Shown piece by piece: positions 16,788 through 58,419 of a stretch of 64,000 nt of DNA (position 1 is its first letter; every line of letters starts with the position of its first letter). A model generated the notes under the pieces. The model searched no databases, was not told the origin of the DNA, and worked only from the letters and a program-made list of their open reading frames with translations. The position numbers and the translations under genes were made by a program. This DNA comes from Branchiostoma floridae (taxonomy: Eukaryota; Chordata; Leptocardii; Amphioxiformes; Branchiostomatidae): the NCBI RefSeq assembly GCF_000003815.2, contig NC_049993.1, forward strand, positions 20,849,326-20,913,325, written 5' to 3'.

Positions 16788-18998
16788 ATGGCGAGTAAGA
16801 TTCCGGATTCTCACAACTTCGATGAGCAGTTCCTGACGTGCCCGGTCTGCATGCTGCACTTCCGGGACCCCAGAGTCCTGCCATGTCTGCACACATTCTG
16901 TAGGGACTGTCTGCAAGAATGGGCCACCAAACAACAGCCGCTGGAGTGTCCAACCTGCCGCACACAGGTCAGTCTACCAGACCAAGGTGTGGACGGACTC
17001 AGGACCAACTTCTACGTCAGCAACCTGCTGGACTTCGCGGCCGTGAAGAAAGGGGCGGGGCCAGGTGTGCCGTGCCAGGTGTGTGAAGGGAAGGGGGAAG
17101 GGGCGCGGTCATGGTGCGTACAGTGTGCCGTTCTGCTTTGTGAGTCCTGTACAAGCACACACCGCAGGTTTCCAACCATGAAAGGGCATCAGATCGTGAC
17201 CCAAGAGAACCTGGAGGCCTCTGAAGGTGTGCCCAGCAGCTTTCAGCGCAAAGCCTTCTGCCCAGAGCACGAAGACCAAGTCTTAACCTTCTACTGTGAA
17301 CCTTGTCAGACTTTGGTCTGTGTCGCCTGTACGGTTGTCGACCATCGGCCGGGTGATCAACACAATCCTGTAAAAATCGGCTCCGTCGCTGAGAGGAAGA
17401 AACGAGACCTACAAAAACTGATAGGAAATGTCGAGTCTAGAGAAAAATTTGCGCGGGGTACCCTGAACGAAGTTGAGAGAGAATTATCCGAGTTACCAAC
17501 ATCGGCAGACGCAGCGATTGAACAGGCCACAATATATTTTGATCAGCTGATGGCCTTGCTTCAAGACAGAAAAGAAGAAGTCGTCACAGAAATCAGCTCA
17601 CGCCGCCAGGAGGTTGGAAAATGTCTTGACACACAGAAAGAAGCGATGGAGTTTGAGTTGGCCGGACTGACGAGCGCGTCTGAGTTCTGTAAACAAGCCT
17701 TGGAACATGGCAGTGACGTGCACGTCATTGAGGTCGAGGGTCAAGCACAACAGAGAGTTGAAGAACTGCTGAGAAGTCCAAGCGACCTGACAGCCCGACC
17801 GAGTCAAGTCGTGTTCTCGGAGGGGACGGCTGTGGCGGAGTTCAGAGATGACGTGGCCAGGGCAGGGTGCGTACACGTCAAAGTTGATGCATCGAAATGC
17901 TTAGTTGAAATTAAGGCTGCTGTTGTAAAGTTTTCAAATGTCTGTCTCCTCAGCATAGTTGACCAAAACAGGCAACTTTGTTCTGTGCTTAAAGATGACG
18001 TCACAGCCACCCTGACGGACCCCTCGGGCCAGGTGGTACCAACACAGCTGCAGGAGAAGGGCAGGGGATTGTGGGAAATCTCCTATACACCTGAGGTCAC
18101 GGGAAACCATAGGTTAGAGGTCAATGTGAACGGCGGGTCTGTGGCGGGAAGTCCGTTTGAGGTTAGAGTGCAAAGTAGGGACACCCCAGTCCTAACCATT
18201 GGGAGATGGGGACTTGGGGAGGGAGAACTTTCCTTCCCAACAGATGTAGCTGTGGACATGGACGGTAACATCGCAGTGGTGGAGTTGGGGAACAAACGGG
18301 TTCAGATATTCGATGCCAAGACTGGTCAGTCACTTCGGAGTTTCCCGGTGGATGGTGAGTGTGCACGAGGCATTGACATGGACTCCAATGGACAGTTTAT
18401 TGTGACGTTCGAAAACAGGTACTACGGAACCACTGGCAACCCAGCAATCCGGGTGTACTCACAGGAAGGAAAACTTACAAAGACCCTAAAACATGACTGT
18501 TTACGAGATCCAATTGGAGTTGCAGTTCTGCAGGACGGCCGCATGGTGGTGGCGGACAGCATACGGAAGTCCTGTCTCCTCCTGCATCCTGACGGGAGCC
18601 TCATCCGGGACATCGGCAAGGGGCAGTTACAGAACCCATGGTTCATAGCGGTGGACGAGTCACGTGATCTGTTCTTTGTCACTGATATAGATGCTCATAA
18701 AGTGTTTGTGTTCGACCTTGAGGGGAAGCTGAAGTTCGGCTTTGGTGAACCGGGGGAAGATGAGGGAGAGCTCTTTTGGCCATCAGGGATAACAGTAGAC
18801 CCGGCAGGTAACATTATTGTAGTGAACCGTGATAACGGCCGTCTGCAGGTGTTCGGGCCAGACGGGACGTACCTGAGAACTGTGGCCACAGTGAAGGGAG
18901 GAGACCCCGAGGGAATCGCGCTGACACCGGATAACCACATAGCTGTGGCGTGTTTTCAGTATCGAGGACATTGTGTCGAGTTGTACAGGTACGAGTAG
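16788..18998 (+). CDS. T1: TRIM-NHL protein (RING, two B-boxes, coiled coil, filamin, NHL)
   Basis: 736 residues in a single exon, from ATG 16788 (MASKIPDSHNF) to TAG. A longer frame to 16662 exists but would begin at GTG, so ATG 16788 was chosen. RING C3HC4: C18, C21, C33, H35, C38, C41, C54, C57. B-box 1 about 96-137, B-box 2 about 158-192, coiled coil about 198-330, filamin-type Ig about 370-465, six NHL blades to the C-terminus (VELYRYE). This is the class VII TRIM layout of TRIM71/LIN-41; TRIM2 and TRIM3 have only one B-box. Expected role: E3 ubiquitin ligase whose propeller binds RNA or protein. Copy-specific NHL features are ECARG, a long ENRYYGTTGN loop shared with T6, and an extended FQYRGHC in the last blade. 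Its 3' flank is class alpha, with AATAAA at 19479-19484. Confidence 0.95.
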   Translation: MASKIPDSHNFDEQFLTCPVCMLHFRDPRVLPCLHTFCRDCLQEWATKQQPLECPTCRTQVSLPDQGVDGLRTNFYVSNLLDFAAVKKGAGPGVPCQVCEGKGEGARSWCVQCAVLLCESCTSTHRRFPTMKGHQIVTQENLEASEGVPSSFQRKAFCPEHEDQVLTFYCEPCQTLVCVACTVVDHRPGDQHNPVKIGSVAERKKRDLQKLIGNVESREKFARGTLNEVERELSELPTSADAAIEQATIYFDQLMALLQDRKEEVVTEISSRRQEVGKCLDTQKEAMEFELAGLTSASEFCKQALEHGSDVHVIEVEGQAQQRVEELLRSPSDLTARPSQVVFSEGTAVAEFRDDVARAGCVHVKVDASKCLVEIKAAVVKFSNVCLLSIVDQNRQLCSVLKDDVTATLTDPSGQVVPTQLQEKGRGLWEISYTPEVTGNHRLEVNVNGGSVAGSPFEVRVQSRDTPVLTIGRWGLGEGELSFPTDVAVDMDGNIAVVELGNKRVQIFDAKTGQSLRSFPVDGECARGIDMDSNGQFIVTFENRYYGTTGNPAIRVYSQEGKLTKTLKHDCLRDPIGVAVLQDGRMVVADSIRKSCLLLHPDGSLIRDIGKGQLQNPWFIAVDESRDLFFVTDIDAHKVFVFDLEGKLKFGFGEPGEDEGELFWPSGITVDPAGNIIVVNRDNGRLQVFGPDGTYLRTVATVKGGDPEGIALTPDNHIAVACFQYRGHCVELYRYE

Positions 18999-20459: not shown

Positions 20460-20599
20460 GTAAGTACACTTTGAGGTGGCATTAAAAGAGCTTAATGCAA
20501 CTTAGTATTTATGCCGCTTTCTTGCCTTTAAACCTTTTCTTCCTTTGTTCTTGTTCTTGTTCTTGTTCTTGTGTAAATACTGAGTAACACCCCTTAGTG

Positions 20600-22534: not shown

Positions 22535-24748
22535 ATGGCGAGTAAGATTCCGGATTCTCACAACTTCGATGAGCAGTTCTTGACGTGCCCGGTCTGTATG
22601 CTGCACTTCCGGGACCCCAGAGTCCTGCCATGTCTGCACACATTCTGTAGGGAGTGTCTGCAAGAATGGGCCACCAAACAACAGCCGCTGGAGTGTCCAA
22701 CCTGCCGCACACAGGTCAGTCTACCAGACAAAGGTGTGGACGGACTCAGGACCAACTTCTACGTCAACAACCTGCTGGACTTCGCGGCCGTGAAGAAAGG
22801 GGCGGGGCCAGGTGTGGCGTGCCAGGTGTGTGAGGGGAAGGAGGAAGGGGCGCGGTCATGGTGCGTACAGTGTGCCGTTCTGCTTTGTGAGTCCTGTACA
22901 AACACACATCGAAGGTTTCCAGCCATGAAAGGGCATCAGATCGTGACCCAAGAGAACCTGGAGGCCTCTGAAGGTGTGCCTGGCAGCTTTCAGCGCAAAG
23001 CCTTCTGCCCAAAGCACGAAGACCAAGTCTTAACTTTCTACTGTGAACCTTGTCAGACTTTGGTCTGTGTCGCCTGTACGGTTGTCAATCATTCACGGGG
23101 TGATAAACGCAATCCTGTAGAAATCGGCTCCGTCGCTGAGAGAAAGAAACGAGACCTACAAAAATTGTTAGCGAAAGTTGAGCCTCGAGAAAAAGACGTG
23201 CGGGATACGCTGAACGAAGTTGACAGAGAATCATCTCAGTTACCAACATCGGCAGACGCTGCGATTGAACAGGCCACAGGATATTTTGATCAGCTGATAG
23301 CCTTGCTTCAAGACAGAAAAAAAGAAGTCGTCCAAGAGATCGTCTCACGCCGCCAGGAGGTTGGAAAATGTCTGGAAACCCAGAAAGAAGCGATGGAGTT
23401 TGAGTTGGCCGGACTGACGAGCGCGTCTGAGTTCTGTAAACAAGCCTTGGAACACGGCAGTGACGTGCACGTTATCGAGGTCGAAGGTCAAGCACGACAG
23501 AGAGTGGACGAACTACTGACCACTCCAAGCGACCTGAGAGCCCGACCGAGTCAAGTCGTGTTCTCGGAGGGGACGGCCGTGGCGGAGTTCAGAGATGGCG
23601 TGGCCAGGGCAGGGCGCGTACAAGTGCGAAACACAGGGAAAGTGGACGTGTTTAAATGTTCAGTTGAAGTTAAACCTGCCGTTGTAGATTTTTCAAATGT
23701 CTCGCTGCTAAGGACAATAGACGAAATGGGACGTCTGTGTGCTGTGGCTAAAGATGACGTCACAGCCACCCTGACGGACCCCTCGGGCCAGGCGGTACCA
23801 ACACAGCTGCAGGAGAAGGGCAGGGGATTGTGGGAAATCTCCTACTCACCTGAGGTCACGGGCAACCATGGGTTAGAGGTCAAGGTGAACGGCGGTTCTG
23901 TGGCGGGAAGTCCGTTTGAGGTCAGAGTGCAAAGTAGGGACACGCCAGTCTTAACCATTGGGAGAGAAGGAAGTGGGGAGGGAGAACTTGTCTGCCCGGC
24001 AGATGTAGCAGTGGACATGGACGGTAACATTGCAGTGGTGGATAATGGGAACAATCGGGTTCAGATATTCGATGCCAAGACTGGTCAGTCACTTCGGTCT
24101 TTCCCGGTGGATGGCGAGAGTCCATGGGGCATTGACTTGGACTCCAATGGACAGTTTATTGTGACTTTTGATAACAACCTCTTCTCCACTGGCAACCAAG
24201 CAATCCGGGTGTACTCACGGGAAGGAAAACTTACAAAGACCCTAAAACCTGACTGTTTGTGGAATCCATGTGGAGTTGCAGTTCTGCAGGACGGCCGCAT
24301 AGTGGTGACGGACTACACACAGCAGTGCTGTTTCCTCCTGCAGCCTGACGGGAGCCTCATCCGGGACATCGGCAAGGGGCAGTTACAGCATCCACAGTTC
24401 ATAGCGGTGGACAAGTCACGTGATATGCTCTTCGTCACTGATTACTTGGCTCATAAAGTGTTTGTGTTTGACCTTGAGGGGAAGCTGAAGTTCAGCTTTG
24501 GTAAACTGGGGCAGGATGAGGGACAACTCTACCATCCAACAGGGATAACAGTAGACCCGGCAGGTAACATCGTTGTAGTGAACGAACGTGACCGCCGTCT
24601 GCAGGTGTTCGGGCCAGACGGGACGTACCTGAGAACTGTGACCACAGTGAAGGGACGATGCCCCCAGAGAATCGCGCTGACACCGGATAACCACATAGCT
24701 GTAGCGTGTTATATGGGAGATTGTGTTGAGTTGTACAGGTACAAGTAG
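22535..24748 (+). CDS. T2: TRIM-NHL protein
   Basis: 737 residues, one exon, ATG 22535 (MASKIPDSHNF) to TAG after VELYRYK. The domain order is as in T1 and all RING and B-box ligands are kept. From the end of B-box 2 into the coiled coil it carries VVNHSRGDK and KVEPREKDVRDTLNEVDRE, a block otherwise found only in T5, which suggests gene conversion between them. The NHL surface positions differ from T1 (DNGNNRV, ESPWG, LWNPCG, DYTQQC, LQHPQF, NERDRRL). The segment KLGQDEGQLYHPTG is identical in T7. The 3' flank is class beta with only a short gene-end echo at 24865-24887. No AATAAA was found close downstream. Confidence 0.95.
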   Translation: MASKIPDSHNFDEQFLTCPVCMLHFRDPRVLPCLHTFCRECLQEWATKQQPLECPTCRTQVSLPDKGVDGLRTNFYVNNLLDFAAVKKGAGPGVACQVCEGKEEGARSWCVQCAVLLCESCTNTHRRFPAMKGHQIVTQENLEASEGVPGSFQRKAFCPKHEDQVLTFYCEPCQTLVCVACTVVNHSRGDKRNPVEIGSVAERKKRDLQKLLAKVEPREKDVRDTLNEVDRESSQLPTSADAAIEQATGYFDQLIALLQDRKKEVVQEIVSRRQEVGKCLETQKEAMEFELAGLTSASEFCKQALEHGSDVHVIEVEGQARQRVDELLTTPSDLRARPSQVVFSEGTAVAEFRDGVARAGRVQVRNTGKVDVFKCSVEVKPAVVDFSNVSLLRTIDEMGRLCAVAKDDVTATLTDPSGQAVPTQLQEKGRGLWEISYSPEVTGNHGLEVKVNGGSVAGSPFEVRVQSRDTPVLTIGREGSGEGELVCPADVAVDMDGNIAVVDNGNNRVQIFDAKTGQSLRSFPVDGESPWGIDLDSNGQFIVTFDNNLFSTGNQAIRVYSREGKLTKTLKPDCLWNPCGVAVLQDGRIVVTDYTQQCCFLLQPDGSLIRDIGKGQLQHPQFIAVDKSRDMLFVTDYLAHKVFVFDLEGKLKFSFGKLGQDEGQLYHPTGITVDPAGNIVVVNERDRRLQVFGPDGTYLRTVTTVKGRCPQRIALTPDNHIAVACYMGDCVELYRYK

Positions 24749-27614: not shown

Positions 27615-29807
27615 ATGGCAAGTAAGATTCCGGATTCTCACAACTTCGACGAGCAGTTCCTGACGTGCCCTGTCTGTATGCTGCACTTCCGGGACCCCAG
27701 AGTCCTGCCATGTCTGCACACATTCTGTAGGGAGTGTCTGCAAGAATGGGCCACCAAACAACAGCCGCTGGAGTGTCCAACCTGCCGCACACAGGTCAGT
27801 CTACCAGACCAAGGTGTGGACGGACTCAGGACCAACTTCTACGTCAACAACCTGCTGGACTTCGCGGCCGTGAAGAAAGGTGCGGGGCCAGGTGTGCCGT
27901 GCCAGGTGTGTGAGGGGAAGGCGGAAGGGGCGCGGTCATGGTGCGTACAGTGTGCCGTTCTACTTTGTGAGTCCTGTACAAACACACATCGCAAGTTTCC
28001 AGCCATGAAAGGGCATCAGATCGTGACCCAAGAGAACCTGGAGGCCTCTGAAGGTGTGCCCAGCAGCTTTCAGCGCAAAGCCTTCTGCCCAAAGCACGAA
28101 GACCAAGTCTTAACTTTCTACTGTGAACCTTGTCAGACTTTGGTCTGTGTCGCCTGTACGGTTGTCGATCATCGGCCGGGCGATAAACACAATCCTGTAG
28201 AAATCGGCTCCGTCGCTGAGAGGAAGAAACGAGACCTACAGAAACTGTTAGCAAACATCGAGCCTCGAGAAAAAGACGTGCGGGCTTCGCTGAAAGAAAT
28301 CGAGGGTGAAATATCTGAGTTACCAACATCGGCAGACGCTGCCGTTGAACAGGCAACAGGATATTTCGATCAGCTGATGGCCTTTCTTCAAGACAGAAAA
28401 AAGGAAGTCGTCACAGAAATCGTCTCACGCCGCCAGGAGGTTGAAAAGTGTCTGGAAACCCAGAAAGAAGCGATGGAGTTTGAGTTGGCCGGACTGACGA
28501 GCGCGTCTGAGTTCTGTAAACAAGCCTTGGAACACGGCAGTGACGTGCACGTCATCGGGGTCGAGGGTCAAGCACGACAGAGAGTGGACGAACTGATGAC
28601 AACTCCAAGCGACCTGACAGCCCGACCGAGTCAAGTCGTGTTCTCGGAGGGGACGGCTGTGGCGGAGTTCAGAGATGACGTGGCCAGGGCAGGGAGTATA
28701 CAAGTAAAAGTTAAGGCAAAGGTATCAGTTGAAATCAAACCAGCCGTTGTAGAGTTTTCAAATATCGCTCTCCTCAGCACTGTTGACAAAAACGGGCAAC
28801 CTTGTTCTGTGCTGAAAGATGACGTCACAGCCACCCTGACGGACCCATCGGGCCAGGCGGTACCAACACAGCTGCAGGAGAAGGACAGGGGATTGTGGGA
28901 AATCTCCTACACACCTGAGGTCACGGGCAACCATAGGTTAGAGGTCAAGGTGAACGGCGGTGCTGTGGCGGGAAGTCCGTTTGACGTCAAAGTGCAAAGT
29001 AGGGACACCCCGGTTTTAACCATTGGGAGAGAAGGAAGTGAAGAGGGAAAACTTTCCTGCCCATCAGATGTAGCAGTGGACATGGACGGTAACATTGCAG
29101 TGGTGGATAATGGGAAAAAACGGGTTCAGATATTCGATGCCAAGACTGGTCAGTCACTTCGGTCTTTCCCGGTGGATGGTGAGAGTCCATGGGGCATTGA
29201 CATGGACTCTAATGGACAGTTTGTTCTGACTTTTGGTAATTATCCCACTGGCAACCAAGCAATCCGGGTGTACTCACGGGAAGGAAAACTCACAAAGACC
29301 CTAAAACCTGACTGTTTACGAGATCCATTTGGAGTTGCAGTTCTGCAGGGCGGCCGCATGGTGGTGGTGGACTGGGGACAGCAGTCCTGTCTCCTCCTGC
29401 AGCCTGACGGGAGCCTCATCCGGGACATCGGCAAGGGACAGTTACAGGACCCATGGTTCATAGCGGTGGACGAGTCACGTGATCTGTTCTTTGTCACTGA
29501 TTTCTCTGCTCATAGAGTGTTTGTGTTCGACCTTGAGGGGAAGCTGAAGTTCATATTTGGTGAACAGGGGTGGAATGAGGGAGAACTCTACAATCCAACA
29601 GGGATAACAGTAGACCCGGCAGGTAACATCGTTGTAGTGAACTGTGGTAACGGCCGTCTGCAGGTGTTCGGGCCAGACGGGACGTACCTGAGAACTGTGG
29701 CCACAGTGAAGGGAAGAGGCCCCCGGGGAATCGCGCTGACACCGGATAACCACATAGCTGTAGCGTGTATTGATGGACGTTGTGTCGAATTGTACAGGTA
29801 CAAGTAG
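27615..29807 (+). CDS. T3: TRIM-NHL protein
   Basis: 730 residues, the shortest intact copy; one exon, ATG 27615 to TAG 29807. RING 18-58, B-box 1 96-137, B-box 2 158-192, coiled coil about 198-330, filamin 370-462 ending GSPFDVKV, NHL 464-730. The linker between coiled coil and filamin is shorter than in the others (QVKVKAKVSVEIKP, lacking the HTGKVDASKC stretch). The loop FGNYPTGNQ and the pattern FGEQGxNEG are shared with T5, which has the same gamma 3' flank. Blade surface residues specific to this copy include DWGQQSC, DFSAHRV, NCGNGRL and IDGRC. AATAAA at 30040-30045. Confidence 0.95.
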   Translation: MASKIPDSHNFDEQFLTCPVCMLHFRDPRVLPCLHTFCRECLQEWATKQQPLECPTCRTQVSLPDQGVDGLRTNFYVNNLLDFAAVKKGAGPGVPCQVCEGKAEGARSWCVQCAVLLCESCTNTHRKFPAMKGHQIVTQENLEASEGVPSSFQRKAFCPKHEDQVLTFYCEPCQTLVCVACTVVDHRPGDKHNPVEIGSVAERKKRDLQKLLANIEPREKDVRASLKEIEGEISELPTSADAAVEQATGYFDQLMAFLQDRKKEVVTEIVSRRQEVEKCLETQKEAMEFELAGLTSASEFCKQALEHGSDVHVIGVEGQARQRVDELMTTPSDLTARPSQVVFSEGTAVAEFRDDVARAGSIQVKVKAKVSVEIKPAVVEFSNIALLSTVDKNGQPCSVLKDDVTATLTDPSGQAVPTQLQEKDRGLWEISYTPEVTGNHRLEVKVNGGAVAGSPFDVKVQSRDTPVLTIGREGSEEGKLSCPSDVAVDMDGNIAVVDNGKKRVQIFDAKTGQSLRSFPVDGESPWGIDMDSNGQFVLTFGNYPTGNQAIRVYSREGKLTKTLKPDCLRDPFGVAVLQGGRMVVVDWGQQSCLLLQPDGSLIRDIGKGQLQDPWFIAVDESRDLFFVTDFSAHRVFVFDLEGKLKFIFGEQGWNEGELYNPTGITVDPAGNIVVVNCGNGRLQVFGPDGTYLRTVATVKGRGPRGIALTPDNHIAVACIDGRCVELYRYK

Positions 29808-34430: not shown

Positions 34431-36639
34431 ATGGCGAGTAAGATTCCGGATTCTCACAACTTCGACGAGCAGTTCCTGACGTGCCCGGTCTGTATGCTGC
34501 ACTTCCGGGACCCCAGAGTCCTGCCATGTCTGCACACATTCTGTAAGGAGTGTCTGCAAGAATGGGCCGCCAAACAACAGCCGCTGGAGTGTCCAACCTG
34601 CCGCACACGGGTCAGTCTACCAGACCAAGGTGTGGACAGACTCAGGACCAACTTCTACGTCAACAACCTGCTGGACTTCGCGGCCGTGAAGGAAGGTGTG
34701 GGGCCAGGTGTGCCGTGTCAGGTGTGTGAGGGGACGAAGAAAGGGGCGCGGTCATGGTGCGTACAGTGTGCCGTTCTGCTTTGTGAGTCCTGTACAAACA
34801 CACATCGCAGGTTTCCAACCCTGAAAGGGCATCAGATCGTGACCCAAGAGAACCTAGAGGCCTCTGAAGGTGTGCCTGGCACCTTCCAGCGCAAAGCCTT
34901 CTGCCCAAAGCACGAAGACCAAGTCTTAACTTTCTACTGTGAACCTTGTCAGACTTTGGTCTGTGTCGCCTGTACGGTTGTCGATCATCGGCCGGGTGAT
35001 AAACACAATCCTGTAGAAATCGGCTCCGTCGCTGAGAGGAAGAAACGAGACCTACGAAAACTGATGAATAATGTCGAGCCTCGAGAAAAAGACGTGCAGG
35101 CTACTCTAAAACAACTCGAGAGGGAATTATCTGAGTTCCCAACATCGGCAGACGCAGCGATTGAACAGGCAACAGCCTATTTTGATCAGCTGATGGCCTT
35201 GCTTCAAGACAGAAAAGAAGAAGTCGTGTCAGAAATCGAATCACGCCGCCAGGAGGTGGGGAAAGGTTTGGAAGCCCAGAAAGAAGCGATAGAGTTTGAG
35301 TTGGCCGGACTGACGAGCGCGTCTGAGTTCTGTAAAAAAAAAGCCTTGGAACATGGCAGTGACGTGCACGTCATCGAGGTCGAAGGTCAAGCACGACAGA
35401 GGGTGGAAGAACTGATGACAACTCCAAGCGACCTGACAGCCCGACCGAGTCAAGTCGTGTTCTCGGAGGGGACGGCTGTGGCGGAGTTCAGAGATGACGT
35501 GGCCAGGGCAGGGTGCGTACAAGTACGACACACAGGGAAGGTTGACGCATCCAAATGTACAGTTGATATAAAACCTGCCGTTTTAGAGTTTCCAAATGTC
35601 TGTCTCCTCAGCACAGTTGACAAAAACGGGCAACCTTGTTCTGTGCTTAAAGATGACGTCACCGCCACCCTGATGGACCCCTCGGGCCAGGCGGTACCAA
35701 CACAGCTGCAGGAGAAGGGCAGGGGATTGTGGGAAATCTCCTACTCACCTGAGGTCATCGCCAAAGGTCACGGGCAACCATAGGTTAGAGGTCAGGGTGA
35801 ACGGTAGGTCTGTGGCGGGAAGTCCGTTTGACGTCAGAGTGCAAAGTAGGGACTCGCCAGTCTTAACCATTGGGAGAAGAGGAGAACTTTCCTTCCCAAC
35901 AGATGTAGCAGTGGACATGGACGGTAACATTGCAGTGGTGGAGCGGGGGAACAAACGGGTTCAGATATTCGATGCCAGGACTGGTCAGTCACTTCGGTGT
36001 TTCCCGGTGGATGGTGGGCGTCCATGGGGCATGGACATGGACTGTAATGGACAGTTTGCTGTGACTTTTCATGACGACGTCTTCTCCACTGGCAACCGAG
36101 CAATCAGTGTGTACTCACAGGAAGGAAAACTCACAAAGACCCTAAAACCTGACTGTTTACGAGATCCATGTGGAGTTGCAGTTCTGCAGGACGGCCGCAT
36201 GGTGGTGGTGGACCGCGCACAGCAGTCCTGTCTCCTCCTGCAGCCTGACGGGAGCCTCATCCGGGACATCGGCAGGGGCCTGTTACAGAACCCATGGTTC
36301 ATAGCGGTAGACGAGTCACGTGGTCTGTTCCTTGTCACTGATATCTCTGCTGATCAAGTGTTTGTGTTTGACCTTGAGGGGAGGCTGAAGTTCAGCTTTG
36401 GTAAGACAGAGGGAGAGCTCATTGGACCAATAGGGATAACAGTAGACCCGGCAGGTAACATCATTGTAGTGAACGGTGATAACTGCCGTCTGCAGGTGTT
36501 CGGGCCAGACGGGACGTACCTGAGAACTGTGGCCACAGTGAAGGGAGACAGCCCCCACGGAATCGCGCTGACACCGGATAACCACATAGCTGTAGCGTGT
36601 TTTAGTGGACATTGTGTCGAGTTGTACAGGTACAAGTAG
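34431..36639 (+). pseudogene. T4: TRIM-NHL copy broken by a 13-bp insertion
   Basis: The first frame (34431-35783) encodes 450 residues covering RING, both B-boxes, coiled coil and most of the filamin domain. It then turns into EVIAKGHGQP and stops. Relative to the other copies, 13 bp (TCGCCAAAGGTCA) are inserted after GAGGTCA near 35759; the insert ends in GGTCA, so it resembles a local duplication. The second frame (35797-36639) resumes the filamin end and the complete NHL propeller. Other oddities: a nine-A run gives FCKKKALEHG in place of FCKQALEHG, and blade 1 lacks about five residues (GRRGELSF). The zinc ligands are intact. If transcribed, it would give a TRIM without a propeller. A polymorphic or assembly-derived lesion cannot be excluded. 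Confidence 0.85.
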
Positions 36640-36749
36640 CCTCATCAAGTACTTCTGATCTTGTCCATGTTCAACGATATCAACCAGCAGAACAGATGTC
36701 ACATCAATACTTCCGCATCCTATATCTAGACACTGACGCAAGCACTATT

Positions 36750-37035
36750 GATAACCACATAGCTGTGGCGTGTTATTGTGGATATTGTGTCGAGTTGTAC
36801 AGGTACAAGTAGCCTCATCAAGTACTTCTGATCTTGTCAGTGCTTTAAACTATCTACAAATAACAGAACAGATATCATGAGAACTTTCCGCATTCTATCC
36901 CCACGTTTTATTGGCACTGAACTTCAGCAAGAACTATTTGAATGACACATAGCTGTATCGTGGGCATTTCGTCCAGTTTTACAGATACAAGATGACGTAG
37001 CCATAAGAGTACCTCTGATCTTGGTCATACGCCAA
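36750..37035 (+). repeat. Two tandem echoes of the TRIM gene end
   Basis: 36750-36812 encodes DNHIAVACYCGYCVELYRYK and TAG, a further copy of the last 20 codons, followed by the same CCTCATCAAGTACTTCTGAT 3' UTR. A second, decayed copy starts near 36943 (ACACATAGCTGTATCG). Spacing is about 180-195 bp. Comparable echoes follow T6 (52573 and 52774), T1 (about 19128) and, very short, T2 (24865). Confidence 0.85.
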
Positions 37036-40840: not shown

Positions 40841-43045
40841 ATGGCGAGTAAAATTCAAGGATCTGCCGACTTCGACGAGCAGTTCCTGACGTGCCCGGTC
40901 TGCATGCTGCACTTCCGGGATCCCAGAGTCCTGCCATGTCTGCACACATTCTGTAGGGAGTGTCTGCAAGAATGGGCCACTAAACAACAGCCGCTGGAGT
41001 GTCCAACCTGCCGCACACAGGTCAGTCTACCAGACCAAGGTGTGGACGGACTCAGGACCAACTTCTACGTGAACAACCTGCTGGACTTCGCGGCCGTGAA
41101 GGAAGGTGTGGGGCCAGGTGTGCCGTGCCAGGTGTGTGAGGGGACGAAGAAAGGGGCGCGGTCATGGTGCGTACAGTGTGCCGTTCTGCTTTGTGAGTCC
41201 TGTACAAACACACATCGCAGGTTTCCAGCTATGAAAGGGCATCAGATCGTGACCCAAGAGAACCTGGAGGCCTCTGAAGGTGTGCCAAGCAGCTTCCAGC
41301 GCAAAGCCTTCTGCCCAAAGCACGAAGACCAAGTCTTAACTTTCTACTGTGAGCCTTGTCAGACTTTGGTCTGTGTCGCCTGTACGGTTGTCAATCATTC
41401 ACGGGGTGATAAACACAATCCTGTAGAAATCGGCTCCGTCGCTGAGAGAAAGAAACGAGACCTACAAAAATTGTTAGCGAAAGTTGAGCCTCGAGAAAAA
41501 GACGTGCGGGATACGCTGAACGAAGTTGACAGAGAATTATCTCAGTTACCAACATCGGCAGACGCTGCGATTGAACAGGCCACAGGATATTTTGATCAGC
41601 TGATGGCCTTGCTTCAAGACAGAAAAAAAGAAGTCGTCCAACAAATCGATTCAAACCGCCAGGAGGCTGGAAAATGTCTGGAAACCCAGAAAGAAGCGAT
41701 AGAGTTTGAGTTGACCGGACTGACGAGCGCGTCTGAGTTCTGTAAACAAGCCTTGAAACACGGCAGTGACGTGCACGTCATCGAGGTCGAAGGTCAAGCA
41801 CGACAGAGAGTGGAAGAACTGATGACAACTCCAAGCGACCTGACAGCCCGACCGAGTCAAGTCGTGTTCTCGGAGGGGACGGCTGTGGCGGAGTTCAGAG
41901 ATGACGTGGCCAGGGCAGGGTGTGTGCACGTCAAAGTAAAGGTTGACGCATCCAAATGTTCAGTTGAAATTAAACCTGCCGTTGAAGGGTTTTCAAACGT
42001 TTCTCTCCTCAGCACAGTTGACAAAAACGGGCACCTTTGTTCTGTGCTGAAAGATGACGTCACAGACACCCTGACGAACCCCTCGGGCCAGGCGGTACCA
42101 ACACAGCTGCAGGAGAAGGGCAGGGGATTGTGGGAAATCTCCTACACACCTGAGGTCACGGGCAACCATAGGTTAGAGGTCAAAGTGAACGGCGGTTCTG
42201 TGGCGGGAAGTCCGTTTGACGTCAGAGTGCAAAGTAGGGTCACCCCAGTCTTAACCATTGGGAGAGAAGGAGATGAGGAGGGAGAACTTAACTTACCAAG
42301 AGATGTAGCAGTGGACATGGACGGTAACATTGCAGTGGTGGAGTGGGGGAACAAACGGGTTCAGATATTCGATGCCAGGACTGGTCAGTCACTTCGGTGT
42401 TTCCCGGTGGATGGTTGGAGTCCATGGGGCATTGACATGGACTCCAATGGACAGTTTGTTCTGACTTTTGGTAATTATCCCACTGGCAACCAAGCAATCC
42501 GGGTGTACTCACGGGAAGGAAAGCTTATAAAGACCCTAAAACCCGACTGTTTATGGAACCCACGCGGAGTTGCAGTTCTGCAGGACGGCCGCATGGTGGT
42601 GGCAGACATCAGGCAGCATTCCTGTCTCCTCCTGCAGCCTGACGGGAGCCTCATCCGGGACATCGGCAAGGAGCAGTTACGGGACCCAAGGTTCATAGCA
42701 GTGGACGAATCACTTGATCTGCTCTTTGTCACTGATTGTGAGGCTCATAGAGTGTTTGTGTTCGACCTTGAGGGGCAGCTGAAGTTCATGTTTGGTGAAC
42801 AGGGGCGGAATGAGGGAAAACTCTACTATCCATCAGGGATAACAGTAGACCCGGCAGGTAACATCATTGTAGTGAACTGGTTTAACCGCCGCCTTCTGCA
42901 GGTGTTCGGGCCAGACGGGACGTACCTGAGAACTGTGGCCACAGTGACGGGAGGAGACCCCCGGGGAATCGCGCTGACACCGGATAACCACATAGCTGTA
43001 ACGTGTGATCGTGGATGTTGTGTCGAGTTGTACAGGTACAAGTAG
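40841..43045 (+). CDS. T5: TRIM-NHL protein, class B start
   Basis: 734 residues, one exon. The N-terminus is MASKIQGSADF where class A copies have MASKIPDSHNF. It carries the KEGVGPG and EGTKKG variants at B-box 1 (as T4) and the NHSRGDKH and DVRDTLNEVDREL block (as T2). Blade surface residues are its own (LNLPRD, EWGNKR, WSPWG, LWNPRG, DIRQHS, LRDPRF, DCEAHR, DRGCC). The fifth-blade loop has one extra residue (NWFNRRLLQVF), a 3-bp insertion. RVTPVLTIG replaces RDTPVLTIG. The 3' flank is gamma with AATAAA at 43271-43276. Confidence 0.95.
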   Translation: MASKIQGSADFDEQFLTCPVCMLHFRDPRVLPCLHTFCRECLQEWATKQQPLECPTCRTQVSLPDQGVDGLRTNFYVNNLLDFAAVKEGVGPGVPCQVCEGTKKGARSWCVQCAVLLCESCTNTHRRFPAMKGHQIVTQENLEASEGVPSSFQRKAFCPKHEDQVLTFYCEPCQTLVCVACTVVNHSRGDKHNPVEIGSVAERKKRDLQKLLAKVEPREKDVRDTLNEVDRELSQLPTSADAAIEQATGYFDQLMALLQDRKKEVVQQIDSNRQEAGKCLETQKEAIEFELTGLTSASEFCKQALKHGSDVHVIEVEGQARQRVEELMTTPSDLTARPSQVVFSEGTAVAEFRDDVARAGCVHVKVKVDASKCSVEIKPAVEGFSNVSLLSTVDKNGHLCSVLKDDVTDTLTNPSGQAVPTQLQEKGRGLWEISYTPEVTGNHRLEVKVNGGSVAGSPFDVRVQSRVTPVLTIGREGDEEGELNLPRDVAVDMDGNIAVVEWGNKRVQIFDARTGQSLRCFPVDGWSPWGIDMDSNGQFVLTFGNYPTGNQAIRVYSREGKLIKTLKPDCLWNPRGVAVLQDGRMVVADIRQHSCLLLQPDGSLIRDIGKEQLRDPRFIAVDESLDLLFVTDCEAHRVFVFDLEGQLKFMFGEQGRNEGKLYYPSGITVDPAGNIIVVNWFNRRLLQVFGPDGTYLRTVATVTGGDPRGIALTPDNHIAVTCDRGCCVELYRYK

Positions 43046-50243: not shown

Positions 50244-52466
50244 ATGGCGAGTAAAATTCAAGGATCGGCCGATTTTGACGAGCAATTCCTGACGTGCTCC
50301 GTCTGTATGCTGCACTTCCGGGATCCCAGAGTCCTGCCATGTCTGCACACATTCTGTAGGGAGTGTCTGCAAGAATGGGCCACCAAACAACCGCCGCTGG
50401 AGTGTCCAACCTGCCTCACACAGGTCAGTTTACCGGACCAAGGTGTGGACGGACTCAGGACCAACTTCTACGTCAACAACCTGCTGGACTTCGCGGCCGT
50501 GAAGAAAGGGGCGGGGCCAGGTGTGCCGTGCCAGGTGTGTGAGGGGATGGAGGAAGGGGCGCGGTCATGGTGCGTACAGTGTGCCGTTCTGCTTTGTGAG
50601 TCCTGTACAAACACACATCGCAGGTTTCCAGCCATGAAAGGGCATCAGATCGTGACCCAAGAGAACCTGGAGGCCTCTGAAGGTGTGCCCAGCAGCTTTC
50701 AGCGCAAAGCCTTCTGCCCAAAGCACGAAGACCAAGTCTTAACTTTCTACTGTGAACCTTGTCAGACTTTGGTCTGTGTCGCCTGTACGGTTGTCGATCA
50801 TCGGCCGGGCGATAAACACAATCCTGTAGAAATCGGCTCCGTCGCTGAGAGGAAGAAACGAGACCTACAGAAACTGATAGGAAACGTCGAGCCTCGAGAA
50901 AAAGTCGTGCGGACTACACTGAAGGAAGTCGAGAGGGAATTATCTACGTTACCAACATCGGCAGACGCAGCGATTGAACAGGCCATAGCCTATTTTGATC
51001 AGTTGATGTCCTTGCTTCAAGACAGAAAAAAAGAAGTCGTCCAAGAAATCGGCTCACGCCGCCAGGAGGTTGGAAAATGTCTGGAAACCCAGAAAGAAGC
51101 GATAGAGTTTGAGTTGGCCGGACTGACGAGCGCATCTGAGTTCTGTAAACAAGCCTTGGAACACGGCAGTGACGTGCACGTCATCGAGGTCGAAGGTCAA
51201 GCACGACAGAGGGTGGAAGAACTGATGACAACTCCAAGCGACCTGACAGCCCGACCGAGTCAAGTCGTGTTCTCGGAGGGGACGGCTGTGGCGGAGTTCA
51301 GAGATGACATGGCCAGGGCAGGGCGCGTACAAGTACGACACACAGGGAAGGTGGACGCATCTAAATGTTCCGTTGAAATAAAACCTGCCGTTGTAGGGTT
51401 TTCAAATGACTTTCTCCTCACCACAGTTGACAAGAACGGCCAACTTTGTTCTGTGCTTAAAGATGACGTCACAGCCACCCTGACGGACCCCTCGGGCCAG
51501 GCGGTACCAACACAGCTGCAGGAGAAGGGCAGGGGATTGTGGGAAATCTCCTACACACCTGAGGTCAAGGGTATCCATAGGTTAGAGGTCAAAGTGAACG
51601 ACATGTCTCTGGCGGGAAGTCCGTTTGACGTCAGAGTGAAAAGTAGGGACACCCCGGTATTAACCATTGGGAGAGCAGGACGTGGGGAGGGAGAATTTTC
51701 CTTCCCATCAGATGTAGCAGTGGACATGGACGGTAACATTGCAGTGTCGGAGTGGGGGAACAAACGGGTTCAGATGTTCGATGCCAGGACTGGTCAGTCA
51801 CTTCGGTGTTTCCCGGTGGATTGCGAGTGTGCACGAGGCATTGACATGGACTCTAATGGACAGTTTATTTTGACGTTCGAAAACAGGTACTACGGAACCA
51901 CTGGCAACCAAGCAATCCAGGTGTACTCACGGAAAGGAAAACTTACAAAGACCCTAAAACATGACTGTTTACGAGATCCAATTGGAGTTGCAGTTCTGCA
52001 GGACGGCCGCATGGTGGTGACGGATTACACACAGAAATCCTGTCTCCTCCTGCAGCCTGACGGGAGCCTCATCCGGGACATCGGCAAGGGGCAGTTGCAG
52101 AACCCACTGTTCATAGCGGTGGACGAGTCACGTGATCTGTTCTTTGTCACTGATTGCTGGGCTCATAAAGTGTTTGTGTTTGACCTTGAGGGGAAGCTGA
52201 AGTTCAGCTTCGGTAAAACGGGGTTTAATGACGGAGAGCTCGAATACCCAACAGGGATAACAGTAGACCCGGCAGGTAACATCATTGTAGTGAACCGTGA
52301 TAACCGCCGTCTGCAGGTGTTCGGACCAGACGGGACGTACCTGAGAACTGTGGCCACAGTGAAGGGAGGATACCCGCTGGTCGTGGGAATCGCGCTGACA
52401 CCGGATAACCACATAGCTGTAGCGTGTTATATGGGAAATTGTGTCGAGTTGTACAGGTACAAGTAG
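50244..52466 (+). CDS. T6: TRIM-NHL protein, class B start
   Basis: 740 residues, the longest copy, in one exon. The RING reads CSVCMLHF and CPTCLTQ: all zinc ligands are present, but residues near them are changed (P19 to S, R58 to L). The class B N-terminus is joined to an alpha-type propeller: the CARGIDMDSNGQFI segment, ENRYYGTTGN and KHDCLRDPIG are shared with T1. AVSEWGNKRVQMF replaces AVVEWGNKRVQIF in blade 1. The last blade has an insertion, GGYPLVVGIALTP, where others have GG(D/F)P(E/H)GIALTP. Two gene-end echoes follow (52573 and 52774). The downstream poly(A) site is altered to GAAAAAAAGATC at about 53185. Confidence 0.95.
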   Translation: MASKIQGSADFDEQFLTCSVCMLHFRDPRVLPCLHTFCRECLQEWATKQPPLECPTCLTQVSLPDQGVDGLRTNFYVNNLLDFAAVKKGAGPGVPCQVCEGMEEGARSWCVQCAVLLCESCTNTHRRFPAMKGHQIVTQENLEASEGVPSSFQRKAFCPKHEDQVLTFYCEPCQTLVCVACTVVDHRPGDKHNPVEIGSVAERKKRDLQKLIGNVEPREKVVRTTLKEVERELSTLPTSADAAIEQAIAYFDQLMSLLQDRKKEVVQEIGSRRQEVGKCLETQKEAIEFELAGLTSASEFCKQALEHGSDVHVIEVEGQARQRVEELMTTPSDLTARPSQVVFSEGTAVAEFRDDMARAGRVQVRHTGKVDASKCSVEIKPAVVGFSNDFLLTTVDKNGQLCSVLKDDVTATLTDPSGQAVPTQLQEKGRGLWEISYTPEVKGIHRLEVKVNDMSLAGSPFDVRVKSRDTPVLTIGRAGRGEGEFSFPSDVAVDMDGNIAVSEWGNKRVQMFDARTGQSLRCFPVDCECARGIDMDSNGQFILTFENRYYGTTGNQAIQVYSRKGKLTKTLKHDCLRDPIGVAVLQDGRMVVTDYTQKSCLLLQPDGSLIRDIGKGQLQNPLFIAVDESRDLFFVTDCWAHKVFVFDLEGKLKFSFGKTGFNDGELEYPTGITVDPAGNIIVVNRDNRRLQVFGPDGTYLRTVATVKGGYPLVVGIALTPDNHIAVACYMGNCVELYRYK

Positions 52467-55400
52467 CCTCATCAAGTACTTCTGATCTTGTCCATGTTCA
52501 ACGATATCAACTAGCAGAACAGATGTCATATCAATACTTCCGCATCCTATATCTAGACACTGAACTTCAGCAAGCACTATTGATAACCACATAGTTGTGG
52601 CGTGTTATTGTGGATATTGTGTCGAGTTGTACAGGCACAAGTAACCTCATCAAGTACTTCTGATCTTGTCAGTGCTCTAAGCTATCTACAAATAACAGAA
52701 CAGATATCATGAGAACTTTCCGCATTCTATCCCCACTTTTTATTGGCACTGAACTTCAGCAAGAATTATTTGAATGACACATAGCTGTATCGTATTGTGT
52801 CGAGTTTTACAGATACAAGATGACGTAGCCATAAGAGTACCTCCGATCTTGGTCATACGCGAAGGTATCAACAAATATCAGAACACCTTATGCTCTTTCC
52901 AAGTTGTCTTTCAACAGACACAAACTTTGTTTAGTTTGCAATCAGTAGTTAGTTCGTATGGAAACTTGGAAATGAGTATTGTGAACATGACTAGTTAATA
53001 CATAACTGTAAACGAGTACTGTACAATCCCAATAGCTGACCACATTAGCAATTGACATATTCAGTATTAACTAACGTTAAGCATTTATATATATATATAT
53101 ATTAAGCATGTATGAAAATGCTTCTTTTCTGTCAACCTTGCGAATACTGGTCATATATATCTGTGACTGGTGGAATATGCGTACTGAAAAAAAGATCAAT
53201 ACTGGAAAACGTGCTATGATTATGTTTGTCAATCGAGAATGAAGCATCTTTTGTTCAAGGAATAGAACGGAGATCATGAGTGTCTTTTTTTTCTGATTGA
53301 ACAAGCGGAAACAAATTCCCCATCACACCCCCTTTTGGAGCTCTCGTTCCCAAAATGCCCGCAACTCGCTAACGAAGCGTCTCCCATTCCCAGATTTGGC
53401 CGTTTCGCGACTTAAGAAATGAGATGGGCTCTTATGGGGTTTTAGCTATAGGTTCCCTTCTTCCATGCGCTTATCTACTTGACCCTTAGGCTTGTCCTGA
53501 CTACCTAGCCAGCAGGGTTCCACCAATGGTGAATCAGTAATTTCTTTTTTTGTTGGTCGATCTGAGGCATGCAGTGCTAGAGGGAATCGTGCGAGACCGG
53601 CCTTTTTCCCGCTATGAATTCGATCACACTTCAAATATTAAAAAATGCTTTTAGTCTTCCAGCCCCTCTCTCACACTGGCGCATTTAGGCCAGCGACCTG
53701 CAAGCTGTCAGCCTCTTTGTGAAATCTCTGCACTCTGTTCTAATCTCAGCTATTATCTTTACCGCTTGGTTCCCTCAATAAGGTTTGATATTGAATGGAA
53801 ATCTGAATACATTCATCACTAGCTACAGGAAACTGAGAGTCAGCCAGTCTAAAAAGACTAGGAGCCTTGGGTGTCAGGTGATGCAAGGTTTTATGTTTTA
53901 ACAATGAGAAAAGCTCATAAAAGAGATATTTCTTTCACATGAAATACTGGTAGTGATCTTTTCTTTGTTAAGGAATCGTGTGAGTTTGATACTCTAAATG
54001 AAACATACATGAAAACAGGTAGAAGAATTGAAAGCAGCAAAGTAGTTGTATCTTATACTGTTTGTACAGAACTTTCACAGATCGTATAAAGGCTATACAG
54101 CTTCACGTTTTCGAGTTGTCCGAAGTCCGAATAGATCTGTTTCCACAGGGGCCGTCAAGGGACTTGGAACACCCAGCTGCGCTAGCGGCGTGACGACCAC
54201 AGTAGTGCCTCCTTTTTAATCATGACCAACTGTTCCTTGATTGGTCACGTGAGTGGCACCTGTTCCTTGATAGGTCAAGTGAGCACAGGACAAGGAAACG
54301 GCGTCAACAAAATCAAAGCAAAGACGTGTAACTCAATTCGCATTACAGGAAATCGATAAACATATTATTCATGGTTTCTATAAGATACTTGAGGACCCCT
54401 CAGTTAGAAAGACGGAAAGTCTGTGGAAAATTCAGAGACATGAAGCATTTTAGGATCTGCTATAACATAGCTGATGGGTAATGTGTTAATTGTTTCCTCT
54501 TTGTAAATGTTAAAAAGTGTACATTTGTCACCTTGAAATCTTCCTACTATTAATATATGATTGTCTTAAGATAATAAGTGGAAATCGGAGAAAGTTTCTT
54601 AGGTATAGAAAATGGCTGTTTCAGTTGACTCGATTATGAATCACTTGCTGTGTTCCTTTTTCGGGTATCGCCATTTTGTTATAACGTAGCCAAACATTCG
54701 ACCGGGCAATCATCATCATCACAGTGCAATAGTGCCAACAATTTTACTCCTCATGGATAGAAATACGCCAGGTACCATCTAGGTAAAAGATAAGACGTAG
54801 ATAGTCTATCCTCAAGTTGTCTCCAGTCTTCAAAACCCTTTAAAGACTTACAAAATATTTTGAGTGTGTCTTTCACCTTTCACCTTTTACGTGTTCTTCA
54901 ACTTTGCACTGAGGCGGTTGGACTACCTGTAGATTATAGACTTCGGGTTTAGCCAACACTGCCTATTGTGTAACATGCACACAGGTAATACCTTTTATAG
55001 TTAGATGTGTCAGGCATGGGAACATAATGAGTTGCTTCTGAAGTCTGTACATGTATCGGCATTATTCATTGACATTGCTTATGAGAGAAAGGAAATATGA
55101 ACTCAATAAACTCGATGTGGCAAGCAAAAGTAAATATCTGTCGGTTGGCGACGTTTCACGAACACCCCTATGTTCTTGGGACAGTCCACCCACCTGTTGA
55201 CAACTTGCCAAACTGGAAGGACGTCGACTGCAGGGCCATGACGTACCTGATGTAAACAGACACAACATTGTAGGGAGCAGAACTACCTTTGCACTGAGTA
55301 TATGTGATTATCATAGTCACATTGGATAATTATGCCGTGATCACATTAACACCTTACACTAGACTCTGCGACTTTCCCAAAGAAACATACAAAGTCGTCT

Positions 55401-56049: not shown

Positions 56050-56217
56050 CGAAACACGTAGGCTCGAGTGCAGAGGTCAACGTGACGTGACGTCAGCCTC
56101 CCGAAACTGAGTTCCGAGAAACCGCTGTGCTCAGTTCCGCATCCACCAGGCGAGTTTTCTACAGAGCAAGACGCGCTGTGTTTACATCTCGATCTAACCA
56201 GTAATCCTCTAGACACA
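56050..56217 (+). promoter_or_regulatory. Class B TRIM promoter, T7
   Basis: TGACGTCA at 56088-56095, exactly 130 bp before the ATG. GAAACTGAGTTCC is kept, but the downstream AGTTTCAC has become AGTTCCGC. Confidence 0.5.
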
Positions 56218-58419
56218 ATGGCGAGTAAAATTCAAGGATCGGCCGACTTTGACGAGCAGTTTCTGACGTGCCCGGTCTGCATGCTGCACTTCCGGGACCC
56301 CAGAGTCCTGCCATGTCTGCACACATTCTGTAGGGAGTGTCTGCAAGAATGGGCCACCAAACAACAGCCGCTGGAGTGTCCAACCTGCCGCACACAGGTC
56401 AGTCTACCAGACCAAGGTGTGGACGGACTCAGGACCAACTTCTACGTCAACAACCTGCTGGACTTCGCGGCCGTGAAGAAAGGTGCAGGGCCAGGTGTGG
56501 CGTGCCAGGTGTGTGAGGGGAAGGAGGAAGGGGCGCGGTCATGGTGCGTACAGTGTGCCGTTCTGCTTTGTGAGTCCTGTACAAACACACATCGCAAGTT
56601 TCCAGGCATGAAAGGGCATCAGATCGTGACCCAAGAGAACCTGGAGGCCTCTGAAGGTGTGCCCAGCAGCTTTCAGCGCAAAGCTTTCTGCCCGAAGCAC
56701 GAAGACCAAGTCTTAACTTTCTACTGTGAACCTTGTCAGACTTTGGTCTGTGTCGCCTGTACGGTTGTCGATCATCGGCCGGGCGATAAACACAACCCTG
56801 TAGAAATCGGCTCCGTCGCTGAGAGGAAGAAACGAGACCTACAGAAACTGATAGCAAATCTCGAGCCTCGAGAAAAAGACGTGCGGGGTACCCTGAAAGA
56901 AGTTGAGAGGGAATTATCTGAGTTACCAACATCGGCAGACGCAGCGATTGAACAGGCCACAGCCTATTTTGATCAGTTGATATCCTTGCTTCAAGACAGA
57001 AAAGAAGAAGTCGTGTCAGAAATCGGCTCACGCCGCCAGGAGGTTGGAAAATGTCTGGAAACCCAGAAAGAAGCGATAGAGTTTGAGTTGGCCGGACTGA
57101 CGAGCGCGTCTGAGTTCTGTAAACAAGCCTTGGAACACGGCAGTGACGTGCACGTCATCGAGGTCGAAGGTCAAGCACGACAGAGGGTTAAAGAACTGCT
57201 GAAAGCTCCAAGCGACCTGACAGCCCGACCGAGTCAAGTCATGTTCTCGGAGGGGACGGCTGTGGCGGAGTTCAGAGATGACGTGGCCAGGGCAGGGCGC
57301 GTACATGTACGACACACAGGGAAGATGGACGCATCTAAATGTTCCGTTGAAATAAAACCTGCCGTTGTAGGGTTTTCAAATTTCTTTCTCCTCACCACTG
57401 TCGACCAAAACGGGCAACTTTGTTCTGTGCTGAAATATGACGTCACAGCCACCCCTGACGACCCCCTCGGCCAGGCGGTACCAACACAGCTGCNNNNNNN
57501 NNNNNNNNNNNNNNNNNNNNNNNNNNNNNNNNNNNNNNNNNNNNNNNNNNNNNNNNNNNNNNNNNNNNNNNNNNNNNNNNNNNNNNNNNNNNNNNNNNNN
57601 NNNNNNNNNNNNNNNNNNNNNNNNNNNNNNNNNNNNNNNNNNNNNNNNNNNNNNNNNNNNNNNNNNNNNNNNNNNNNNNNNNNNNNNNNNNNNNNNNNNN
57701 NNNNNNNNNNNNNNNNNNNNNNNNNNNNNNNNNNNNNNNNNNNNNNNNNNNNNNNNNNNNNNNNNNNNNNNNNNNNNNNNNNNNNNNNNNNNNNNCGGGG
57801 CATTGACATGGACTCCAATGGACAGTTTGTTCTGACATTAATTAACGACTTCTTCACCACTGGCAACCAAGCAATCCAGGTGTACTCACGGGAAGGAAAA
57901 CTCACAAAGACCCTAAAACCTGACTGTTTACGAGATCCATTTGGAGTTGCAGTTCTGCAGGACGGCCGCATGGTGGTGGCGGACATCACACAGAAGTCCT
58001 GTCTCCTCCTGCAGCCTGACGGGAGCCTCATCCGGGACATCGGCAAGGGGCAGTTACTGTACCCACAGTTCATAGCGGTGAACGAGTCACGTGATCTGCT
58101 CTTTGTCACTGATTGGGAGGCTCATAGAGTGTTTGTGTTTGACCTTGAGGGGAAGCTGAAGTTCAGTTTTGGTAAACTGGGGCAGGATGAGGGACAACTC
58201 TACCATCCAACAGGGATAACAGTAGACCCGGCAGGTAACATTATTGTAGTGAACCGTGATAACGGCCGTCTGCAGGTGTTCGGGCCAGACGGGACGTACC
58301 TGAGAACTGTGGCCACAGTGAAGGGAGGGTTCCCCCACGGAATCGCGCTGACACCGGATAACCACATAGCTGTGGCGTGTTTTTATGGACAGTGTGTCGA
58401 GTTGTACAGGTACGAGTAA
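56218..58419 (+). CDS. T7: TRIM-NHL protein, class B start, with internal gap
   Basis: The frame is open on both sides of a 302-N gap (57494-57795) that removes the end of the filamin domain and NHL blade 1; 733 residues if the gap size is right. Just before the gap ATLTDPSGQ is replaced by ATPDDPLGQ through several compensating one-base indels, which looks like poor read quality. The coiled coil (ANLEPREKDVRGTLKEVERE, LISLLQDRKEEVVSEIGS) is shared with T8. The fifth-blade segment KLGQDEGQLYHPTG and the 3' flank (beta) are those of T2, so the gene joins a class B head to a T2-like tail. The final residue is E, as in T1. Confidence 0.88.
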   Translation: MASKIQGSADFDEQFLTCPVCMLHFRDPRVLPCLHTFCRECLQEWATKQQPLECPTCRTQVSLPDQGVDGLRTNFYVNNLLDFAAVKKGAGPGVACQVCEGKEEGARSWCVQCAVLLCESCTNTHRKFPGMKGHQIVTQENLEASEGVPSSFQRKAFCPKHEDQVLTFYCEPCQTLVCVACTVVDHRPGDKHNPVEIGSVAERKKRDLQKLIANLEPREKDVRGTLKEVERELSELPTSADAAIEQATAYFDQLISLLQDRKEEVVSEIGSRRQEVGKCLETQKEAIEFELAGLTSASEFCKQALEHGSDVHVIEVEGQARQRVKELLKAPSDLTARPSQVMFSEGTAVAEFRDDVARAGRVHVRHTGKMDASKCSVEIKPAVVGFSNFFLLTTVDQNGQLCSVLKYDVTATPDDPLGQAVPTQLXXXXXXXXXXXXXXXXXXXXXXXXXXXXXXXXXXXXXXXXXXXXXXXXXXXXXXXXXXXXXXXXXXXXXXXXXXXXXXXXXXXXXXXXXXXXXXXXXXXXXRGIDMDSNGQFVLTLINDFFTTGNQAIQVYSREGKLTKTLKPDCLRDPFGVAVLQDGRMVVADITQKSCLLLQPDGSLIRDIGKGQLLYPQFIAVNESRDLLFVTDWEAHRVFVFDLEGKLKFSFGKLGQDEGQLYHPTGITVDPAGNIIVVNRDNGRLQVFGPDGTYLRTVATVKGGFPHGIALTPDNHIAVACFYGQCVELYRYE

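Follow-up and report, generated by a model that had tools for sequence, protein, structure and literature searches.

TRIM2, TRIM3 and TRIM71/LIN-41, among the closest known TRIM-NHL proteins, are single conserved genes in human. TRIM-NHL proteins fall within a TRIM group that is described as strongly conserved in vertebrates, whereas the SPRY group comprises species-own gene sets (PMC2533329) and evolves fast, frequently under positive selection (PMC3137616). The fish fintrim, btr and trim35 (hltr) families and primate TRIM5-alpha are expanding TRIM ligases whose C-terminal recognition domain is under positive selection, and in TRIM5-alpha the loops of this domain form the ligand surface (PMC3137616). 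Among NHL proteins, diversity of the top opening was described by Chaikuad et al. between different human TRIM-NHL proteins (PMC9634614), and evolutionary plasticity between NHL subfamilies by Kumari et al. (PMC5908797). The filamin-related TRIM genes of worm and fly were the only invertebrate TRIM expansion then seen; the accessible text describes them by gene number, with no diversifying NHL face (PMC2533329). Furthermore, a table of the top 20 fast-evolving genes between Branchiostoma floridae and B. belcheri lists a TRIM71-annotated gene with a value of 1.41 (PMC5787515). Concerning targets of microbial origin, the NHL domain of TRIM32 is needed for binding of the Salmonella effector SseK3, a ubiquitination target of TRIM32 (PMC10989757), the binding of influenza PB1 by TRIM32 was not mapped to NHL in the accessible sections of the report (PMC4461266), and the antiviral action of TRIM2 maps mainly to filamin (PMC6380604).

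The window (the whole 64-kb stretch of DNA analysed here) differs from the TRIM-NHL proteins TRIM2, TRIM3, TRIM71/LIN-41 and fly Brat and Thin in containing a tandem array of TRIM-NHL genes in which the top face of the propeller is diversifying. While fintrim and TRIM5-alpha use a B30.2 domain, the array uses an NHL propeller and has no SPRY hit; positive selection in ligand-facing C-terminal loops, as found in the TRIM-B30.2 restriction factors, is here borne by another fold. What is new is a top-face contrast inside one young array, with measured selection. The amphioxus TRIM71-annotated gene may be of the same kind as the array genes, but it is an entry in a genome-wide list for which the accessible text gives no sites, domain or array (PMC5787515). 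Searches of open-licence PMC papers turned up no description of an array whose NHL face diversifies, which is no proof that none exists. A TRIM-NHL array with one face repeatedly rewritten would make the propeller, besides B30.2, a diversifying sensor of TRIM ligases.

Layout and domain architecture of the array

Positions 16788..58419 contain seven TRIM-NHL copies (five intact, one frame-broken, one gapped), all arranged head to tail on the plus strand with approximately 2.2 kb of coding sequence each and no visible intron. An eighth, partial copy follows. The copies and associated features are as follows.

T1, 16788..18998, plus strand: intact, a single open frame with RING, two B-boxes, coiled-coil region, filamin and six-bladed NHL, with Pfam hits
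T2, 22535..24748, plus strand: intact, the structural reference, with NHL at residues 467-737
NHL propeller of T2, 23927..24745, plus strand: 24 predicted strands, selected sites in the d-a and b-c loops
T3, 27615..29807, plus strand: intact
T4, 34431..36639, plus strand: frame broken where the filamin part ends, by 13 extra bases (35757-35769) that separate two open stretches
NHL C-terminus relic behind T4, 36738..36809, plus strand: 24 codons
T5, 40841..43045, plus strand: intact
T6, 50244..52466, plus strand: intact
NHL C-terminus relic behind T6, 52570..52641, plus strand: 24 codons
T7, 56218..58419, plus strand: a 302-base N run (assembly gap, 57494-57795) covers late filamin and NHL as far as the blade 2 entry
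T8, ~61366..62375, plus strand: partial copy, RING to coiled-coil region, with an N run at 61555-61654

The T8 copy stops in the coiled-coil region, and no filamin or NHL was found for it within the 64-kb window. The domain comparisons cover the seven copies T1-T7, all from one assembly. Along its length, the 3' flank of T1 can be aligned (~70%) with the relic end of T4/T6. A search for related loci by pattern yielded 0 matches in viral contigs and four pattern matches in genome contigs, none of them a relative.

The two copies scanned with Pfam, T1 and T2, scored above cut-off for RING, B-box1 (PF22586), B-box2 (PF00643), filamin (PF00630) and NHL (PF01436), and no SPRY family was among their hits. 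The C3HC4 pattern of the N-terminal RING was present in all seven copies T1-T7 and the B-box2 zinc pattern in six of seven, the exception being T2, in which the last His is replaced by Arg. The coiled-coil model PF25600 reached 24.8 bits in T2 and 19.1 bits in T1, both below the cut-off of 30. Long helices at 198-234 and 240-306 were seen in a low-confidence full-length model (pLDDT 55) that is useful for NHL alone and poor elsewhere. The NHL model had a TM-score of 0.91 to TRIM2. RING, B-boxes, filamin and a six-bladed NHL are features of class VII TRIM-NHL E3 ligases, and ubiquitin ligase activity is predicted for the copies. Around the filamin start (alignment columns 361-400) the copies have indels and are strongly diverged at silent sites, dS reaching 0.52 in a 40-codon window.

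Comparison of the flanks by their closest stretches yielded two groups at the 5' side, {T1, T2, T3, T4, T8} and {T5, T6, T7}, and a different arrangement at the 3' side, {T2, T7}, {T3, T5}, {T4, T6} and T1; weaker or shorter flank matches also run across groups. Since the 5' and 3' groupings differ, the genes look like mosaics in which exchange inside the gene joins different RING and NHL ends. By a run test with Bonferroni correction, 2 of 21 pairs have an excess of shared tracts, at codons 193-233 and 130-211, corresponding to the B-box to coiled-coil part.

A constant RING end and a diversified propeller face

The earlier note on this DNA had described the RING and B-boxes as almost identical in all copies, and the low protein change agrees with this at a silent divergence similar to that of NHL. 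Pooled dN was 0.034 for RING and 0.033 for each of B-box1 and B-box2, versus 0.121 for NHL, and dN/dS was 0.24, 0.50, 0.30 and 0.98, respectively. Values of dS were 0.14 (RING), 0.07 (B-box1), 0.11 (B-box2) and 0.12 (NHL); because these are alike, the contrast lies in amino-acid change and not in age. Likeness of the RING end merely through youth or conversion was ruled out, as dS from RING to coiled coil (0.07-0.17) is close to that of NHL. All NHL loop motifs quoted in the earlier note were found in the copies. A small correction concerns its conserved proline at the blade entry, which is not invariant in blade 2 (ECARG in T1 and T6).

In beta-propeller topology the d-a and b-c loops form one face (here the top) and the a-b and c-d loops the opposite face. 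AlphaFold2 was run on the seven NHL domains with T2 as structural reference, and the resulting model (pLDDT 92.9, pTM 0.90) has 24 strands of at least 3 residues, laid out as six blades of four strands with the first strand closing blade six. With loop limits taken from this model, at least 3 different residues occurred at 33 of the 79 top-loop (d-a and b-c) sites, at 1 of the 53 bottom-loop (a-b and c-d) sites and at 10 of the 131 strand sites (top versus bottom loops, Fisher 3e-8), so that variability lies on one NHL face, as previously proposed, and is not scattered over both. Variable sites of any kind numbered 54 in top loops, 10 in bottom loops and 32 in strands. When the labels were shifted circularly, 1 of 263 shifts attained the observed sum, the zero shift being counted among the 263. 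Under hand-drawn limits, which were set with the sequence in view, 38 of 44 sites with at least 3 residues fall in top loops. The five intact copies by themselves gave 24/79 (top), 0/53 (bottom) and 6/131 (strands), and across the 21 copy pairs differences ranged from 21 to 38 top-loop sites and from 1 to 6 bottom-loop sites.

The one-face pattern is not a general NHL property, as judged by a human TRIM2/TRIM3 control. The two human proteins are 82% identical (PMC9634614), and the array copies, at 76-82% relative to T2, are of about the same divergence. TRIM2 and TRIM3 differ from each other at 13 of the 82 sites in top loops, 15 of the 51 in bottom loops and 21 of the 135 in strands (top versus bottom p 0.08; loop labels transferred by sequence alignment and approximate in places). 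Thus differences are not enriched on the top face of TRIM2/TRIM3, in contrast to the diversifying top face of the array copies.

Codon and site models came from a purpose-written script of GY94 type, with F3x4 and naive empirical Bayes, and not from PAML. For NHL, comparison of M8 with M8a gave an LRT of 220.7, with omega 12.2 at 15.6% of sites. Of the 25 NHL sites that exceeded 0.95, b-c loops contain 13 and d-a loops 8, and the remaining 4 come immediately after the blade-entry proline (489, 579, 621 and 711, assigned by DSSP to strand a). A partition model with a free silent rate and hand limits gave omega_top 2.49-2.67 and omega_rest 0.62-0.67, a result that holds on five topologies including a star (p 9e-8 to 1.6e-6). 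When the loop limits came from AF2 and strands served as the sole background, omega was 2.41 for d-a plus b-c loops (p 1.3e-5), 5.93 for b-c alone (p 3.5e-6), 1.56 for d-a alone, which falls short of significance (p 0.07), and 0.84 for bottom loops (p 0.73). Strand omega was ~1.0 in this setting because the four post-proline selected sites are assigned to strands a.

Counting dN/dS under hand limits gave a weaker estimate for top loops, 1.38 (0.94-2.11, an interval that spans 1), with 2.34 (1.15-5.24) for b-c and 1.00 (0.64-1.64) for d-a loops. When only codons with single-base differences were counted (AF2 limits), values were 1.55 (top), 2.67 (b-c), 1.11 (d-a), 0.79 (bottom loops), 0.54 (strands) and 0.31 (RING to coiled coil). 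The expectation that dN/dS exceeds 1 at the loops is borne out by the partition and site models, and less strongly by counting. Dependence on broken or gapped copies was ruled out, since the five intact copies keep an LRT of 154.7 with 18 sites, all in the same places (top loops or post-proline), and omega_top 2.32 (p 0.0003).

Outside NHL, a weaker positive signal was obtained for RING to coiled coil (M8 versus M8a, LRT 16.8), with three sites above 0.95 in the coiled-coil region (alignment columns 213, 267 and 270 of T1-T7); as a guess, these may perhaps prevent mixing of copies in oligomers. For filamin the comparison was not significant (LRT 1.5), yet eight sites exceeded 0.95 at omega 1.6. 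The coiled-coil and filamin sites indicate that diversification is not wholly confined to NHL. Nevertheless, the dN contrast, the loop distribution and the codon models support the division, put forward in the earlier note, into a constant effector end and a recognition end diversified on one face, and there is good support for an unvarying ligase whose recognition surface diversifies on one face. The array probably encodes tandem TRIM-NHL E3 ligases with a catalytic end under purifying selection and a propeller top face (the d-a/b-c mouth) under strong diversifying selection.

Alternative sources of the diversity and candidate ligands

Sequence diversity of this kind might be functionless, arising from relaxed constraint, local hypermutation, conversion between divergent paralogues, or alleles assembled as a false array, and several observations lend this some weight: T4 is frame-broken, T7 and T8 are gapped, the exchange tracts noted above are present, and by the model estimate the loops exceed the rest 2.2-2.4-fold in silent rate. 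However, silent divergence at residue-conserved codons is not raised in the top loops, where it was 0.031 (25 codons, 2 of them silently polymorphic) or, with hand limits, 0.061 (23 codons), while bottom loops had 0.020, strands 0.081 and the RING-to-coiled-coil part 0.103, and a mutational hot spot was ruled out on this basis. Relaxed constraint alone would bring omega to at most 1. In the pairs with common 3' flanks (T2/T7, T3/T5 and T4/T6), nucleotide divergence was 0.20-0.26 in top loops, 0.04-0.05 in flanks and 0.05-0.07 in the rest of NHL, i.e. loop divergence is ~4-6 times that of linked flanks, while the rest of NHL compared with the flank gave p 0.49, 1 and 0.013 for the three pairs. 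Flank divergence is given here as mismatches divided by the length of the BLAST alignment, for chosen rows: two for T2/T7, one of which runs on into the 5' flank of the gene that follows, a further two for T3/T5, and one for T4/T6. A second I4/I6 row (131/1648) was excluded because it represents the 5' flank of T5/T7. Nine of the 25 selected codons retain a single third base across all readable copies while encoding 3-6 residues, against a mean of 0.73 and a maximum of 4 such sites in 2000 draws of random synonymous codons. This null draws synonymous codons independently, an assumption broken by recent common descent, and its sole use here is to indicate that the selected codons were not imported whole. 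Pair differences at these codons were 0.62 at the first, 0.58 at the second and 0.32 at the third position. The higher silent rate in the loops could have signified a hot spot or imported blocks; neither of these, nor relaxed constraint, holds up against the silent divergence at conserved codons, the third-base constancy and the excess over flanks. Tree errors from gene conversion were ruled out as the whole cause by the five topologies and by null simulations with a separate tree for each half (n=40), in which the LRT reached at most 7.87, far short of the 219.9 given by the data under equal settings. The amino-acid excess would also persist even if some copies were alleles, and functionless diversity is considered very improbable.

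Binding of various RNAs, viral or transposon-derived, in the manner of LIN-41, Brat and TRIM56, which use NHL or NHL-like domains, would be another source of diversification. The 14 residues named as RNA contacts of LIN-41 (PMC5908797) were mapped onto the copies via blade register and the TRIM71 sequence, with blade 2 least certain. Of these equivalents, 13 vary, 11 have at least 3 residues and 9 are selected, compared with 16 selected among 249 other sites (p 2e-7); within the top face alone, the comparison is 9/14 versus 14/67 (p 0.002). This enrichment indicates that selection acts on known ligand positions, and the coincidence with RNA contacts is what speaks for RNA, as do the mixed hydrophobic and basic RNA surface of Brat, the evolutionary plasticity of NHL RNA recognition (PMC5908797) and the binding of Zika RNA by the NHL-like region of TRIM56 (PMC6623546). 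Set against this is the chemistry of the face. Net charge at the 14 equivalents is +7 in LIN-41 and -3, 0, -1, -1, +3, -3 and -2 in T1-T7 (T7 readable at 9 of 14), so that the copies are without the LIN-41-type basic contacts; top-loop charge ranges from -6 to +1, and the 25 selected sites, with 166 residues in all, include no lysine. RNA as the preferred ligand is consequently not supported, although the earlier note had raised foreign RNA or proteins as possible targets, and we regard RNA-driven diversification as unlikely.

Residues enriched at selected sites are Trp (6.6% vs 0.5%), Tyr (7.8% vs 1.7%) and Arg (12.7% vs 5.7%), and Asp makes up 10.2%. A composition rich in Trp, Tyr, Arg and Asp recalls protein-binding interfaces more than a phosphate-binding patch. 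The missing basic patch and the Trp/Tyr/Arg enrichment favour varied, probably foreign, proteins over RNA, and judging by residue makeup a protein ligand is more likely. That the ligands are foreign is suggested by the selection pattern and the parallel with TRIM-B30.2 (PMC3137616). The same selection signature would, however, be left by any coevolving ligand, including an internal antagonist or a partner in self-recognition such as transposon proteins or gamete or tissue-compatibility ligands, and a mobile-looking open frame with no Pfam hit adjoins T8. Evidence for such a ligand is lacking, and the authors of the fish TRIM-B30.2 work think that virus sensing or restriction may drive comparable selection (PMC3137616); diversification against internal rather than pathogen ligands is quite unlikely.

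Under the preferred reading of foreign protein ligands, new variants would come from gene duplication, from inter-copy exchange that reshuffles the 5' and 3' parts of the genes, and from recurrent point substitution at ~25 surface positions. Each propeller would have a separate ligand, most likely a pathogen protein or other antagonist, the coiled coil would render the ligase multimeric, and the RING would ubiquitinate the target held in the propeller mouth. TRIM32 and SseK3 provide a precedent for capture by the propeller followed by ubiquitination (PMC10989757), while the antiviral action of TRIM2, mainly via filamin, counts against such a mechanism (PMC6380604). An immune function of the array is plausible. 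More tentatively, and with somewhat less than an even chance of being correct, the NHL propeller may represent a germline-diversified, paratope-like intracellular scaffold, i.e. an innate invertebrate repertoire of ubiquitin ligases that point selection and 5'/3' exchange renew, with an individual binding mouth in each copy built from six Trp-, Tyr- and Arg-rich loop pairs. By analogy, one propeller face would be diversified in the way that immune receptors vary recognition. The array offers ~25 candidate ligand-binding residues, and in it one ligase is found naturally joined to a series of differing recognition ends.

Other features of the window

No tRNA was found in a search of the 64-kb window. 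Beyond T8, a long open frame on the minus strand (62670-63998) appears mobile-element-like by eye, and no Pfam match was obtained for this frame or for that at 44888-45457. Upstream of the array, also on the minus strand, 11264-13834 encodes an LRR protein with a long tail carrying repeated KYEN/YENDD motifs, which we take to be possible tyrosine signalling motifs, and 254-3292 encodes a protein that combines a DUF294 nucleotidyltransferase-like part with numerous TPR repeats, the coding sequence consisting in part of a 132-base tandem repeat. LRR and TPR genes next to a TRIM-NHL array would point to a lancelet. A minisatellite with a 37-base unit (12.9 copies, 97% matches) occupies positions 7414-7894.
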